NCBI GenBank assembly: GCA_021295965.1
Contig: JAGWBI010000030.1
Coordinates: 27,164-59,303 of the forward strand
Direction: 5' to 3'
DNA length: 32,140 bases
From: Dehalococcoidia bacterium
GTDB taxonomy: Bacteria; Chloroflexota; Dehalococcoidia; Lucifugimonadales; UBA3495
In this document: positions 5,254-13,747 of the stretch, in pieces
Position numbering within the stretch: the stretch's first letter is position 1
How the letters are laid out: every line of letters starts with the position of its first letter
Position numbers and translations under genes: made by a program
The notes under the pieces: model-generated
The model's database searches: none
What the model was told of the DNA's origin: nothing
The model's input: only the letters and a program-made list of their open reading frames with translations

Positions 5254-6558
5254 CTAAACCCGCACCCGGCTGATCATCCCGGCCGATATGAGCCGCGTGG
5301 CCGCCATCACCAGGAACACGATGGGCCAGGGACTGCCGGTCATGTCCAGCAGGACGCTGAATATCAGCGCCTGGGCGCCGGCGTAGAGATAGCCGTGGGC
5401 GTCCAGCACGCCGGCCCCGGTGCCGGCCATCTTGCGACCCGAAAGGTCCACGGAGATGGTGGAGATCAGCGACACGCCCATGCTGATGCCGCCCCAAAGC
5501 ATCAAAGCCGCGCCCAGCCAGGCGTTTGACGGCGGCGCGATGGCGATTGCCACCAGCGCGGCGGCGGAGAAGAAACAGGATGCGAGCACCAGCGGGCGGC
5601 GGCGACTCCCCAGCAACTTGTCGGAGATGAAGCCGGACATGGGCGGCGCGATCAAATAGCCCAGGGGCAGCAGGAAGGTGATGAGCACCGTCTGCGTTAT
5701 TTCCAGGCCGCCAGCCTCGAAGTAGTATAAGGGCACCCAGGTGGTGAGGCCGTAGCGGGCCACATTCTCCAGCCCCTTGACGTGGCAGGCCAGCTGGAAA
5801 CGGGAGTTGGTCAGCAGCAGCTTATAGGGGCCCAAACCTCTCAACTCTTCTTCGCTGACCGACTCGGGAGCGGCGGATATCTGGTCCTCCTCAACGTACT
5901 CGGGCAACCCCACGTCGCGGGGACGGTCGCGGGTGAGGAAGTAAAAGGCGACGCCCAGTACCAGGATGATTAGCGGCGGATAGCGGAAGGCGGCGCGCCA
6001 ACCCCACTCGGCGGCCACCCAGCTGCTCAGCCACCACATCAGCAGCATCGACCCTCCGGAGATCGTGCCGACGAAACCCATGGCGATGCCCCGCTCCCGT
6101 CGCGGCCACCACTGGCTGATCATGCTGATGGCCGGCGACCAGCAGGCGGCGTTGACGAATCCGGCCAGTCCCCAGGGAATCGCAAAGCCGACCGCCGAGG
6201 TGCCGAACGATGCCGCCCAGTTGAAAACGGTGGTGAACACCGCGCCCAGCGTAACCCAGAGGCGCAGCCCGTATGCCTCCGACATCCGCCCGTGCACCAG
6301 GTCGCCAAGGGCGAACCCCCATAGCAGCATGGCGTTGATGACGCCGATCTCAATGTTGGTGAGCTGCAGGTCGTCCTTGATCAGCGGCGACGTGGGCCAG
6401 AAGTTGAACCGCCCGGTATAGACGAACAAGTAGAAGGCGCAGAACGAAATCAGTACCTGCCACTTCCAGCGGTGGTAACGCCGGGGCAGGTCGTCGTAAG
6501 CCATCGGGCCGCCGGTCTCGGCAGACAATGGCGAAGCGGGCTGGCGAGGAGTTACCAT
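5254..6558 (-). CDS. MFS transporter, organophosphate:phosphate antiporter-like
   Basis: About twelve hydrophobic helices make this a major facilitator protein of about 434 residues. The FYLFVYTGRFNFWPTSPLI segment in the first helix and GDLVHGRMSEAYGLR (the cytoplasmic loop between helices 2 and 3) resemble the GlpT/UhpT (OPA) branch, which moves organic anions. WWPRRERGIAMGF is the loop between helices 4 and 5. A charged central loop (about residues 220-255) divides the halves. The substrate cannot be told. The start may be ATG 6558 (used) or ATG 6504, closer to the conserved YHRWKWQVLISF. It is co-directional with the hydrolase and the VOC gene. Confidence 0.87.
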   Translation of the reverse strand: MVTPRQPASPLSAETGGPMAYDDLPRRYHRWKWQVLISFCAFYLFVYTGRFNFWPTSPLIKDDLQLTNIEIGVINAMLLWGFALGDLVHGRMSEAYGLRLWVTLGAVFTTVFNWAASFGTSAVGFAIPWGLAGFVNAACWSPAISMISQWWPRRERGIAMGFVGTISGGSMLLMWWLSSWVAAEWGWRAAFRYPPLIILVLGVAFYFLTRDRPRDVGLPEYVEEDQISAAPESVSEEELRGLGPYKLLLTNSRFQLACHVKGLENVARYGLTTWVPLYYFEAGGLEITQTVLITFLLPLGYLIAPPMSGFISDKLLGSRRRPLVLASCFFSAAALVAIAIAPPSNAWLGAALMLWGGISMGVSLISTISVDLSGRKMAGTGAGVLDAHGYLYAGAQALIFSVLLDMTGSPWPIVFLVMAATRLISAGMISRVRV

Positions 6559-6634
6559 TCGTAGGGGCTTGGCAAATGACAAACCGCCGCTGCCGGTGGG
6601 GCGGCGGCGGCGGCGTTGTGGTGCGGCTGGTGGA

Positions 6635-10115: not shown

Positions 10116-10124
10116 TGGTATAGT
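10116..10124 (+). promoter_or_regulatory. Extended -10 promoter of the ATPase/TOPRIM-like pair
   Basis: TGGTATAGT fits the extended -10 pattern TGnTATAAT with one mismatch. It lies 46 bases before the ATG at 10170. No good -35 box is present, which an extended -10 can tolerate. Confidence 0.4.
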
Positions 10125-10169: not shown

Positions 10170-11468
10170 ATGCTTACATCCCTTCGCCTGGTCAACTTCA
10201 AGAACTTCGCCGACGAGACGCTGAAGCTCGGCCCCTTCACCGTAATCGTCGGCGCCAACGCCAGCGGCAAGAGCAACATCCGCGACGCTTTCCGCTTCCT
10301 GCACGGCATCGGGCGGGGGTACACGCTGGCGGACATTTTGGGGGGCAAATATGGACCAGGAGGGCAGCGTGAATGGGATCAGATTAGAGGGGCTCCGAAG
10401 GAGGTCGGGCGCTTGGACCCAGAGTTCAATCTTCCTCCTTCGACCTTTTCCCTCAGTGCTGGAATTGATCGTGTTGACGGCGAAAGATCGGTCTATTCGA
10501 TATCCATATGGTTCGATCCATTCGGCCCTCAGGGGTTTCGCATAACTGAAGAATCTCTGATCTCCGATGCGAGAACGATTTTTGCTAGTGCGAGTTCTGA
10601 AGATCCCTTTTGGATGCGGCTAAGGTTTGGCGAGGACATTACTCAACAACCGCCGGGGCGCATCAGCAGTCTCCAACCTGCTTTGTCTCAATTTTTTCAG
10701 ATCTACAAATCGATGTATCGTGATTTTGTGACCGATCCAGGGATAATGCAGGCACTCCAGAATATGAGCTTTCTAGAACTTGCTCCGGAACGAATGCGAG
10801 AACCATCCATCCCCGGCGCAACAACATTGGGCGACTACGGCCAGAACTTGCCCTCCGTCCTGGAATCAATCTGCGCCGACGCCGACCGCAAGCAGACCCT
10901 TCTTTCATGGTTTGAAGAGTTGACGCCGATGGACGTGGCCGGCTTTGGGTTTCCCCGGGACCCCAGCGGTCGGGTCCATCTGCAAATCGTGGAGCGCAAC
11001 GGGCGCAAAGTGTCGGCTTACAGCGCGTCCGACGGCACTCTGCGCTTTCTGGGCATCCTGGCTGTGCTACTAAATGAGGACGCCGGCGGCACCTACTTCT
11101 TTGAGGAGATTGACAATGGTATCCACCCCAATCGGTTGTGGCTACTGCTGGAACTGATTGAACGGCAGACGGCCAAGGGGAATATCCAGGTCATCACCAC
11201 CACCCATAACCCTGCTCTGCTGGCCTGGATGAACGACGAGACTTTTGAGAACACTTCGGTGGTCTATCGCGACGAATATTGGTCCGACAGCGTGATCCGC
11301 CCTATCGCTGGACTGTACAACTTGCGGGAGTTACGAAAATCTCATGGTATGGAGGGACTCCTAACTGAAGGCTGGCTAGAAACGGCGATGAAGTTTTCAG
11401 AGGGAGATTACGATACCGATCATCTGGACGATGACGACGAAGACGACTGGGGGATGGAGGAAGAATGA
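10170..11468 (+). CDS. AAA/ABC-type ATPase of the AAA_15/AAA_21 (OLD/RecF-like) class
   Basis: This 432-residue protein has an ABC-ATPase head: LTSLRLVNFKNF start, Walker A GANASGKS at 28-35, signature-like SDGTLRFLG near 287, Walker B YFFEEIDNGIHP with E312/E313, and switch His H346 in TTTHN. The tail ends in an acidic run (DDDDEDDWGMEEE). Such ATPases act with nucleases in OLD, Gabija, PARIS and AAA-TOPRIM systems. The ATG at 10170 has GGGAG 8 bases upstream and is preferred to the ATG at 10143. The stop overlaps the next start (ATGA), so the two products are probably made together. The middle of the gene is much lower in GC than its ends. Confidence 0.88.
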   Translation: MLTSLRLVNFKNFADETLKLGPFTVIVGANASGKSNIRDAFRFLHGIGRGYTLADILGGKYGPGGQREWDQIRGAPKEVGRLDPEFNLPPSTFSLSAGIDRVDGERSVYSISIWFDPFGPQGFRITEESLISDARTIFASASSEDPFWMRLRFGEDITQQPPGRISSLQPALSQFFQIYKSMYRDFVTDPGIMQALQNMSFLELAPERMREPSIPGATTLGDYGQNLPSVLESICADADRKQTLLSWFEELTPMDVAGFGFPRDPSGRVHLQIVERNGRKVSAYSASDGTLRFLGILAVLLNEDAGGTYFFEEIDNGIHPNRLWLLLELIERQTAKGNIQVITTTHNPALLAWMNDETFENTSVVYRDEYWSDSVIRPIAGLYNLRELRKSHGMEGLLTEGWLETAMKFSEGDYDTDHLDDDDEDDWGMEEE

Positions 11469-12049
11469 ATGTCCTCATCATCCCCGAAGACTTCCGCAAA
11501 GACCAGTACATACTGAAGCCGCTATTTGACAGTCTGTTCCGACGCTTGGGCACGCCTTATGTACACGTGGCTATTTGCCGGAAACCGTTGCTCGGCGGCG
11601 TCGGTGATGCCCTGAAACTGGACCGTATCGCCGAAATCGTCCGCGATAATCGGGGGATGACCGACATATTCATACTGTGCGTTGACCGAGACGGCGTGGC
11701 CGGGCGGCGTCAAAGCCTCGACAACCTCGAGGCTGCAATTCAATCCCAATTCGGCCACAGCGCGCTTTTCCTCGCCGAAAATGCCTGGGAAGAGTTGGAA
11801 ACGTGGGTACTGGCCGGCGTGGACTTGCCCAACAACTGGCGGTGGGCGGACGTGCGCGCCGAAGTACACGTCAAGGAACAATACTTTGAACCGCTGGCTG
11901 CGCAGCGCGGCGTAGCCAACTCACAAGGCGGTGGTCGCAAGGTGTTGGCCGAGGAAGCATCACGCCGTGTCCGCGCTATCCGGCGGAAATGCCCTGAGGA
12001 TTTTGACGCCCTGGCGCAACGACTCGAAACCAGCGTGCAAACGCCATAG
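11465..12049 (+). CDS. TOPRIM-like partner of the ATPase (DUF4276/DUF4435-type)
   Basis: This 194-residue protein is unlikely to be a domain I can name with certainty, but its layout fits TOPRIM: E8-D9 after the first strand (NVLIIPED), then ILCVDRDG with D74-x-D76 after a strand, as in the E...DxD metal site of OLD and AriB-like nucleases. A third acidic patch follows at AENAWEELETWVLAG (about 109-123). The C-terminal third is basic and helical. It overlaps the ATPase gene by four bases, the tight coupling seen in two-gene defence operons. It may be a nuclease that the ATPase restrains or activates. A longer DUF4435 protein would be expected in canonical PARIS. Confidence 0.72.
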   Translation: MNVLIIPEDFRKDQYILKPLFDSLFRRLGTPYVHVAICRKPLLGGVGDALKLDRIAEIVRDNRGMTDIFILCVDRDGVAGRRQSLDNLEAAIQSQFGHSALFLAENAWEELETWVLAGVDLPNNWRWADVRAEVHVKEQYFEPLAAQRGVANSQGGGRKVLAEEASRRVRAIRRKCPEDFDALAQRLETSVQTP

Positions 12050-12075
12050 CCAATCCTACAACGGTCACCGTTTGA

Positions 12076-12084
12076 TGTTACAAT
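12076..12084 (+). promoter_or_regulatory. Extended -10 promoter before the AprB-like gene
   Basis: TGTTACAAT matches TGnTATAAT with one mismatch and lies 57 bases before the GTG start at 12141. It suggests that the AprB-like gene and the HEPN-like genes after it are read separately from the ATPase pair. Confidence 0.4.
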
Positions 12085-12140
12085 TCCCCGCAGACTTTTT
12101 TGCCGCTTTGCTTTATTGCCCATCCAGAGGAGAACCGAGA

Positions 12141-12581
12141 GTGCCTACCTATGTTGACCCCTCCGCCTGCAACGCCTGCGCCGGCGTGCATGGCGGCCCC
12201 CAGTGCGTCTATATCTGTCCCAACGACCTGATGGTCCTGGACGGCATCGTCAACAAGGGCAGCAACCAGGAGCCGGATATGTGCTCCGAGTGCTACGCCT
12301 GCGTCAAGTTATGCCCCGAAAACGCCATCCACGTGCGCGGCTATGCCGACTTCGTGCCGCTGGGCGCGGAAGTGCAGCCCCACTACGAGGGACAGGACAT
12401 CGTGTGGGACGTCACCTTCCGCGACGGACGCACCGAGCACTTCCGCTTCGCCTCCCGCTCCACACCCTGGGGCAGCATCGACCCCTACGCCAACGTCGCG
12501 CCGGCCGACGGCGACGCCCTGCGCGGCCAGAACCTCTTCGGCGAACCCCACTACCTGATGCTGCCCGACGACAACAGCTGA
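12141..12581 (+). CDS. aprB: Adenylylsulfate reductase beta-like iron-sulfur protein
   Basis: This 146-residue protein aligns by eye with AprB over its whole length: MPTYVDPSACNAC start, CVYICPNDLMVLD, EPDMC-ECYACVKLCP, AIHVRGYADFVPLG, and a C-terminal STPWGS segment. Eight cysteines (C10, C13, C22, C26, C48, C51, C54, C58) can hold two [4Fe-4S] clusters. AprB passes electrons to AprA, the flavin subunit that interconverts APS and sulfite. Two oddities: no aprA is present in the window, and the residue between C48 and E50 is Ser, whereas the AprB sequences I know have Trp there, a residue implicated in electron transfer. The GTG start has GAGGAGAAC upstream. It may have another partner. Confidence 0.75.
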   Translation: MPTYVDPSACNACAGVHGGPQCVYICPNDLMVLDGIVNKGSNQEPDMCSECYACVKLCPENAIHVRGYADFVPLGAEVQPHYEGQDIVWDVTFRDGRTEHFRFASRSTPWGSIDPYANVAPADGDALRGQNLFGEPHYLMLPDDNS

Positions 12582-12585
12582 TGAG

Positions 12586-13383
12586 ATGACCACCACCGAC
12601 ACTGTCGCCTATCACCGTAAAGAAACTCGTCGACTATTGCGCGAGGTCGACGACGCGCTGGGTCGTGGCGATTTGGAGTCAGCTCCAACCAAGCTGTGGA
12701 GTGCCGCAGCGGAGAGCATCAGGGGCGCTGCCGCTGGCAGGGGATGGGAGTACGGTTCTGACAGCCTGCTGTCTGAAACCGTTGACAGGTTGGTGGACGA
12801 GGAAAACTTGCCAAGTGACCTGATTGGTCAATTCTTGATGTTGTACGCTTTTCGGGCCGCGCCTGTCAGCCATGCTCACAGCCCCGGGAAAATCCGTTAC
12901 GGTAGGGGTCAATTGGCGCAGTTCGTCTACGCTTTGGAATATCCCAAACCGCCAACATTGTCAGAAATCGCTCCGCCACCGCCGTCCACCGCCGCCGACG
13001 CCGCCGAATACTATCGCGAAGAAAGTTGGCGGCGCCTTCGCCGCGTAAACGATGATTTGGACGCGGGCTTGGGAGAGCACGCTCGAGATCAGTTGTGGGC
13101 CGCTGCTGCACACTCCATCAAATCAGCCGCCGCCCGGCGTGGTTGGCCGCACGAATCTGTTCTTGATTTGGGTGAAACGGCAGACCGACTTGCCGCCGAG
13201 GAAGGTATGCCGTCCCGGCTGGGGCAATTGTATTTGTTGGGGAGCGCGTACAGCCGCGAAGGTTGGCAAGTACCCATGAACACGGAAAGGATTTGCTATA
13301 CCAAGGCGGATATTGCTCAATTGATGGCTGAGTTCGAAGCTTGGGATGTCGCGCAATTCAGTGCTTCCCATGGCGCCCGATGA
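12586..13383 (+). CDS. Protein with two tandem HEPN/PaREP1-like domains
   Basis: Two similar halves are visible in this 265-residue protein: residues about 8-115 and 138-255. Each starts with an AxYxRxExRRxLRxVDDxL-like helix, continues with a KLW-AAAxSI(R/K)xAAAxRGW helix, and then L-ETVDRLxxE and a small-residue and aromatic stretch. That matches the PaREP1 family of helical proteins related to HEPN domains, usually found in archaea and thermophiles. It starts four bases after the AprB-like stop, so the two are probably co-transcribed. The HEPN RNase motif (R-x4-6-H) is not evident, so a nuclease role is unproven. Confidence 0.65.
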   Translation: MTTTDTVAYHRKETRRLLREVDDALGRGDLESAPTKLWSAAAESIRGAAAGRGWEYGSDSLLSETVDRLVDEENLPSDLIGQFLMLYAFRAAPVSHAHSPGKIRYGRGQLAQFVYALEYPKPPTLSEIAPPPPSTAADAAEYYREESWRRLRRVNDDLDAGLGEHARDQLWAAAAHSIKSAAARRGWPHESVLDLGETADRLAAEEGMPSRLGQLYLLGSAYSREGWQVPMNTERICYTKADIAQLMAEFEAWDVAQFSASHGAR

Positions 13384-13747
13384 CCGCGTTGATTACTATC
13401 GCGCCCAGAGTAGGCATTTTCTAGTCCTGGTGGATGACGAACTGCATCGCAACGAGCTGGAGGAAGCCGCCAATAAACTATGGGGTGCGGCAGCCCATGC
13501 CATCAAAGCTGTTGCCGAAGCTCGAAGCTGGCAACACAACGGACACGCTCTGTTGGAAACGGCGGTTATGCGCCTGTTAGCCGAAGGCGCACCGCCGCGA
13601 CTGAGCGGCCTATACGATTTGGCGTCAAGGTTTCACCGCGGGTTTTACGGGGACCAGCCGTTTACCGCAAACCAGATCTACAACGGCAAAGAACCGGTTG
13701 CCGATTTCATCCAGACCCTGGAAAACCTGCCTGACCCGCAGACCTAA
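13370..13747 (+). CDS. HEPN/PaREP1-like single-domain protein
   Basis: This 125-residue protein repeats the pattern of the preceding gene: VDYYRAQSRHFLVLVDDELHRNEL, then ANKLWGAAAHAIKAVAEARSW and LLETAVMRLLAEG. It overlaps the upstream gene by 14 bases from ATG 13370; ATG 13346 would extend it by eight residues. Together the two genes hold three copies of the domain, indicating serial duplication. It ends convergent with prmC with a four-base overlap (13744-13747). Confidence 0.65.
   Translation: MAPDDRVDYYRAQSRHFLVLVDDELHRNELEEAANKLWGAAAHAIKAVAEARSWQHNGHALLETAVMRLLAEGAPPRLSGLYDLASRFHRGFYGDQPFTANQIYNGKEPVADFIQTLENLPDPQT

Follow-up and report, generated by a model that had tools for sequence, protein, structure and literature searches.

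The question raised by this locus is what an ABC ATPase gene (A) and the small gene overlapping its end (B) do together at positions 10170 to 12049 of the window, the whole 32,140-nucleotide stretch of DNA that was analyzed. A sequence-only reading had seen in them a candidate defense pair. We arrive, with a probability of about two in three, at an OLD-ABC/TOPRIM type of anti-phage module whose two components would be a sensor-ATPase and a TOPRIM nuclease. The pair is most likely PARIS-like in design and HEC-01/PDC-M07-like by descent. The features concerned are as follows.

10119..10124, + strand: TATAGT, possible -10 element before A (candidate, by eye)
10170..11468, + strand: gene A, 432-aa AAA_21/OLD-type ABC ATPase, proposed sensor/regulator (Pfam, PADLOC, AlphaFold, Foldseek)
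11465..11468, + strand: ATGA stop/start overlap of A and B (sequence; B starts at 11465, stop codon of A at 11466-11468)
11465..12049, + strand: gene B, proposed nuclease effector of 194 aa, TOPRIM-like and distantly DUF4276-like (alignment, hhalign, AlphaFold)
12070..12089, + strand: block with TACAAT before the aprB-like gene (by eye)
12141..12581, + strand: aprB-like 4Fe-4S/APS-reductase_C gene, a genomic anchor outside the module (Pfam APS-reductase_C, 2.5e-24)

A conserved two-gene unit

The shared ATGA had been read from the sequence, and both the open reading frame listing and the letters themselves confirm it at these coordinates; translation of A and B may be coupled through it. An overlap of -4 was kept in 65 of the 75 homologous loci measured, indicating that neither the pair nor the overlap is due to chance. 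The open reading frame tool places the start of A at ATG 10143. ATG 10170 agrees with the family start, M1 being kept in 90% or more of 78 homologues, a figure that favors this ATG because homologue starts were taken as the nearest M at extraction. By eye, TATAAT, TATAGT, or TATATT lies at a roughly similar distance before A in the five sister copies compared.

The sequence-only reading would have been refuted had the two genes rarely occurred together, but they were found to be closely linked. An A homologue lies within 500 bp of B in 95 of 98 sequences (the window and 97 loci, some of them duplicates of one place). Among 80 loci on genome contigs, an open reading frame search found A near B in 78, and A adjoins B in 79 when L087 is counted, where only 194 bp lie upstream, yet the end of A was detected by tblastn (31% over 58 residues, 1.9e-5). 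The sole exception is L092, a decayed B without A. The pairwise distances of A and B are correlated (r of 0.79 over 72 loci and 2,556 pairs, uncorrected for relatedness). A-B is a conserved two-gene unit. Broken copies also occur among the 80 loci: L034 has a frameshift in A, L090 a broken A, and L069 and L092 an interrupted B. In L038, L040, and L087, a contig end truncates A. In L069 of Chloroflexus islandicus (6001-6561), one in-frame stop follows about 132 codons of B, and A is full length.

The ATPase and its small partner

The ABC ATPase motifs reported for the first gene held up in an alignment of 78 homologues (95 sequences, reduced to 87 without the window's second copy, L001, and incomplete ones, and to 78 without loci fetched twice). 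Walker A (G28xNxxGKSN), the signature (S287-DGT), the Walker B-like E312-E313, and the switch H346 are 95 to 100% conserved. G28, N30, G33-K34-S35-N36, S287, G289, T290, H319, and H346 are invariant, and D288, E312, and E313 are each at least 95% conserved. Walker B reads YFFEEID, with E-E instead of D-E. Pfam AAA_21 matches A at 2.7e-31. The best PADLOC model is PDC-M07A (7.5e-67, covering 410 of 432 positions), and HEC-01A (2.3e-35) and AriA (3.8e-32) also match. The AriA match is not specific, since this model of 304 positions is generic and AAA_21-like and matches A over the range that Pfam AAA_21 covers. The AlphaFold model of A (pLDDT 88.8, pTM 0.88) is closest in Foldseek to Rad50, SMC heads, and PtuA, with E values down to 1.3e-13, and Thermus OLD (6p74) is also among the matches. 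By its motifs and predicted fold, A is an OLD/Rad50-like ABC ATPase.

The E8...D74-x-D76 pattern pointed out in the 194-residue second protein is a family trait, with E8 in 99% and D74 and D76 each in 100% of 77 aligned homologues. This set was reduced from 98 sequences to 94 of at least 170 aa and to 77 at 95% identity, gaps uncounted; the four shorter copies removed were L015 and L016 (contig-end cuts) and L069 and L092 (interrupted). The relatives sampled were the best 80 of 103 and are at least 48% identical to B, so distant relatives lie outside the sample. Conserved blocks of the 77-member family are PEDFRKDQY, DRDG..RR, ENAW[EQ]E[IL]E.W.LAG, and CPED.

Searches of B itself against Pfam, PADLOC, and NCBIfam at E up to 10, and against PHROGs at E up to 0.01, gave no match. 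Among its 77 family members, DUF4276 is matched by 18 (Pfam, best 5.1e-4) and the HEC-01B model PDLC04210 weakly by 24 (best 1.2e-4), and the window's B matches neither. In hhalign, B scored 82% against DUF4276 subgroup 2 and 43% against subgroup 1, compared with 88% for the two subgroups against each other; their profiles were built from 11 and 9 of 25 extracted sequences, with one per group trimmed short (69 and 140 aa). B against lumazine synthase, OLD-TOPRIM, and DUF4435 gave 0.2 to 0.3%, and the 0.2% against OLD-TOPRIM or DUF4435 is a weak test, as those two profiles (from 9 and 3 sequences) reach only 3% mutually. By eye, DUF4276 proteins of related genomes show a similar block order (e.g., VEGETEE, VD, HEFEALLFAD or METWFLAD, and a C-terminal CP-like block). 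These profile and block comparisons relate the B family to DUF4276 at the family level, distantly. Two DUF4276 genes stand at other places in the window's genome (G000:C30:1970-2347 and G000:C45:140382-140891), and sister genomes have up to eight matches.

Of the profiles that the sequence-only reading had named, AAA_21 was thus found in A and DUF4276, weakly, in the family of B, but DUF4435 matched neither B nor any of the 77 members. AriB is a DUF4435 protein, and the second protein had been taken for a small or minimal form of it. This identification was rejected on the lack of a DUF4435 match together with the narrow length range of complete copies (184 to 202 aa), which instead make B a small family of its own, distantly DUF4276-like. 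HNH was likewise without a match in B or any of the 77 members.

The structure prediction that had been suggested for B gave a confident AlphaFold model (pLDDT 93.6, pTM 0.89) with strand-helix alternation, in which E8 directly follows strand 1 (2-7) and D74-x-D76 stands at the end of strand 3 (68-74). In the TOPRIM arrangement, E follows strand 1 and DxD ends strand 3. Despite this motif order, Foldseek of the model against the PDB gave no match at E of 0.001 or below (best E 0.02). The first rows were arginine decarboxylase and lumazine synthase, and the best 50 matches held no evident TOPRIM protein and had a TM to query below 0.4. A PDB sequence search with B alone reached a best E of 0.18, and a profile search gave 0 matches. 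In the viral structure library, the top match was an RloB-like protein (probability 0.99, E 0.011, TM 0.50, rmsd 6.9), RloB being a TOPRIM protein; a search for the RloB family in relatives found 0 of 99 genomes above the cut-off. Motif order and model together make a TOPRIM fold of B likely, and B, probably a TOPRIM protein, is a putative metal-dependent nuclease.

Hma-embedded and free copies

Hma genes were scored by tblastn at 1e-15 in flanks reaching about 6 kb at most, or 8 kb for the plasmid. A match was present in 14 of the 61 loci with at least 3 kb before and at least 1.5 kb after B, and in 17 of all 81 loci. In 12 of these 14, a DUF1156 methylase precedes the pair and a DUF499 ATPase follows it, in hosts labeled as several phyla. 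The order in L091 is HmaA-A-B-HmaB, with HmaA and HmaB both at E of 0 in PADLOC, and the neighbors of the pair in L054 are HmaB (1.4e-112) and HmaC (4.1e-66). Seven loci besides L091 (L023, L035, L041, L042, L044, L051, and L052) have an HmaA-like helicase 1 to 7 kb ahead of HmaB, with both genes on one contig and one strand; this search covered 12 genomes and gave no clear order in L039, L047, L054, and L068. Extra genes separate the pair from the Hma genes in L039, L041, and L047. In L041 (6645-7212), two small genes lie between B and the DUF499 ATPase, the first without a PADLOC match; by eye they resemble a toxin-antitoxin pair of the DUF433/DUF5615 type. L023 (1-1312) has a further AAA_21 ATPase, truncated at the locus edge, that overlaps a small HEC-01B-like partner (1.3e-7) by a few bases directly upstream of HmaB, so that two different pairs occupy one Hma locus. 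In L027 (6588-8801), the last of the 14 loci, an HmaC fragment of about 240 bases is the only Hma match and stands just after B, with an AAA_21/DUF2813 ATPase gene further downstream, and this locus is possibly a remnant of an Hma locus.

On a quick-method tree of the 72 loci with both proteins (69 inner branches, 23 starred and 18 open), the 14 embedded and 43 free rows require 11 changes of state; the other 15 rows have too little flank and were left out of the scoring. Shuffled states needed 8 to 14 changes in the 20 of 50 shuffles listed, indicating that the Hma state has little to do with descent. Entry into Hma or exit from it has probably happened many times, though many branches of the tree are weak. 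Within the window's genus, the G011 copy is in Hma (L035) and the others are free.

The defense context around homologous loci, suggested as a check, was borne out in part; 47 of the 61 well-flanked loci had no Hma match. Around free copies (34 of 63 free loci), 2 of 123 neighboring proteins matched PADLOC at E of 1e-20 or below, both under one DUF1848-type label, and on this sample known defense genes beside free copies were rejected. Among the 25 of 71 Pfam families listed, these neighbors are mostly transporters and metabolic enzymes. The scan took up to two open reading frames of at least 100 aa per side, chosen by length and thus possibly including false ones, and left out L092 and L027, with defense-type ATPase genes nearby, and 16 other loci with Hma hits. 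Guilt by association accordingly holds for the Hma-embedded copies only. Of the candidate defense pair as originally proposed, the ATPase with a TOPRIM-like partner stands, and members of the family do sit inside Hma, but the free copies are not beside known defense genes.

The window's copy is one of the free ones. The window has no tblastn match to HmaA, HmaB, or HmaC. Its genome, G000, which is 86.6% complete, was without an HmaC-like match at 1e-20, and at 1e-3 neither DUF1156 nor DUF499 was matched in it. An HmaC-like match is present in 5 of the 14 genomes of the genus, and only that of G011 is a close one. The gene preceding A is an MFS gene, and B is followed by the aprB-like gene, which is present in all 14 genomes. 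TACAAT precedes the aprB-like gene in 12 of the 13 sites compared (6 with and 7 without the pair), with TATAAT in the other (L228); because this block is kept with and without the pair, the pair sits just upstream of it. Two PaREP1-family genes, presumably HEPN-like, follow the aprB-like gene at 12586-13747 of the window, the first a weak match (below the Pfam cut-off) with two similar halves. Of 12 sister sites compared, 5 have similar genes after the aprB-like gene.

This setting bears on a different reading, in which A-B is a free-standing housekeeping or regulatory pair that is occasionally captured by Hma loci. It could serve DNA repair or maintenance, as a RecF/Rad50-type ATPase with a TOPRIM partner, or regulate the adjacent aprB-like gene. 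Consistent with this, B lies directly upstream of the aprB-like gene in 7 of its 10 carriers in the genus (G000, G002, G004, G005, G008, G010, and G012, with G005 read across a contig break), most well-flanked copies have no Hma match, and the 34 free copies have ordinary genes as neighbors; in an archaeon, an OLD-family ATPase has also been reported to act in the cell cycle (partial text of PMC12796447). However, presence is patchy for a housekeeping pair: B was found in 15 of 197 genomes, counting that of the window, and is missing from 4 of the 14 of the genus (G001, G003, G009, and G013), and G006, G007, and G011 carry the pair elsewhere. In five sister genomes compared that have the pair at the same site, the aprB-like proteins are 92 to 93% identical to that of the window but A and B only 59 to 76%, as in fast-evolving conflict genes. 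That the pair recurs between one and the same two Hma genes across hosts labeled as several phyla also argues against a housekeeping function, which we regard as unlikely.

One plasmid copy was found, on Brasilonema pBOCT1 (52% identity, about 2 kb from an integrase gene), among 72,556 plasmid records searched. A phage-borne module was rejected on the basis of 0 matches in 50,697 phage records, one IMG/VR contig, and the lack of a PHROGs family for B; that contig, L235, is the only one in IMG/VR with a relative of B (51% identity). Host labels include Chloroflexota, Cyanobacteriota, Pseudomonadota, Acidobacteriota, Latescibacterota, and other phyla. A toxin-antitoxin-like or plasmid- or mobile-element-stabilizing pair, with B as nuclease toxin and A as ATPase antitoxin, would fit the overlapping genes, the integrase near the plasmid copy, and the Pfam description of AAA_21 as a putative AbiEii toxin-type AAA domain. 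The single plasmid match speaks against it, as does A itself, a large ABC ATPase, whereas antitoxins are usually small, and the embedding in Hma would be left unexplained. We judge such a role quite improbable, and mechanistically it overlaps with abortive defense.

Proposed mechanism and related systems

For the anti-phage module that we favor, the anatomy and associations of the pair are observed, and from them we infer its trigger, target, and outcome. By analogy with PARIS, A would bind and restrain B. Upon infection, A may sense a phage product, which for a pair inside Hma could be an anti-restriction protein, and an ATP-driven change would free or activate B. B would then cut nucleic acid with metal ions, either tRNA, as AriB of PARIS does, or DNA, as in OLD, and the cleavage would stop phage growth or the cell. 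The window's copy would act alone, as its genome gave no match to a DUF1156 or DUF499 protein.

A-B is real and conserved, a module of known kind whose effector subfamily is unannotated. In the databases searched, the ATPase is named as a candidate only and the partner is unrecognized, leaving such modules half annotated across several phyla. The mixture of embedded and free copies makes it testable whether an embedded module depends on the restriction system or is self-sufficient. More tentatively, B might found an unannotated TOPRIM nuclease subfamily and A-B might be an autonomous guard module that moves repeatedly between free chromosomal sites and Hma, sensing phage counter-defense in both; we hold this to be possible but doubtful. 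If true, one sensor would protect cells with and without a host restriction system.

Hma has been named as a candidate system (partial text of PMC8565338). For BREX and DUF499 systems (the latter named BR there and Hma by others), OLD-ABC/nuclease dyads are reported in at least 1242 taxa, with TOPRIM-linked dyads the most prominent and proposed as backup effectors (PMC12839542, in the text covered). The dyads described there are of the same kind as A-B and are likewise recruited into DUF499/Hma loci, but a DUF4276-like subfamily or free-standing copies are not mentioned in the covered text of that paper. HEC stands for Hma-embedded candidates, among which HEC-04, an ATPase fused to TOPRIM, has anti-phage activity (partial text of PMC12111858). 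Judging from the model matches, HEC-01 would be an AAA_21-type ATPase with a DUF4276-like partner. It resembles A-B in the HEC-01A match of A, the weak HEC-01B matches within the B family, and the Hma-embedded family members, but the window's B lacks a HEC-01B match, its copy is outside Hma, and A is closer to PDC-M07A. The latter, a PADLOC phage-defense candidate ATPase, is the best model for A, but no B-family protein matches any PDC-M07 model. Our literature search found nothing on DUF4276 and nothing relevant on HEC-01 or PDC-M07 among the matches listed.

PARIS (AriA and AriB), for which class 4 of the OLD classes has been proposed (partial text of PMC10568477), likewise has separate genes for an OLD-type ABC ATPase and a TOPRIM nuclease, and the sensor/effector logic is likely shared; AriB, once released from AriA, dimerizes and cuts tRNA (partial text of PMC12409363). 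That A-B is itself a true but divergent PARIS is nonetheless very improbable, since the similar gene order and architecture and the match of A to AriA are set against the unspecific nature of that model, the higher scores of PDC-M07A and HEC-01A on A, and a partner that is DUF4276-like and of 184 to 202 aa rather than a DUF4435 protein.

OLD nucleases, HEC-04/IbfA, and Gabija GajA have the same two domains as A-B but fused in one protein. Gabija combines its fused ATPase-TOPRIM with a UvrD-like helicase, whereas A and B are separate genes and the helicase is absent. Septu (PtuAB) differs in its HNH nuclease partner. One decayed copy of B (L092, 556-3248), a pseudogene with two internal stops, lies upstream of an AAA_21-like ATPase gene and an HNH-like gene that look Septu-like by eye.
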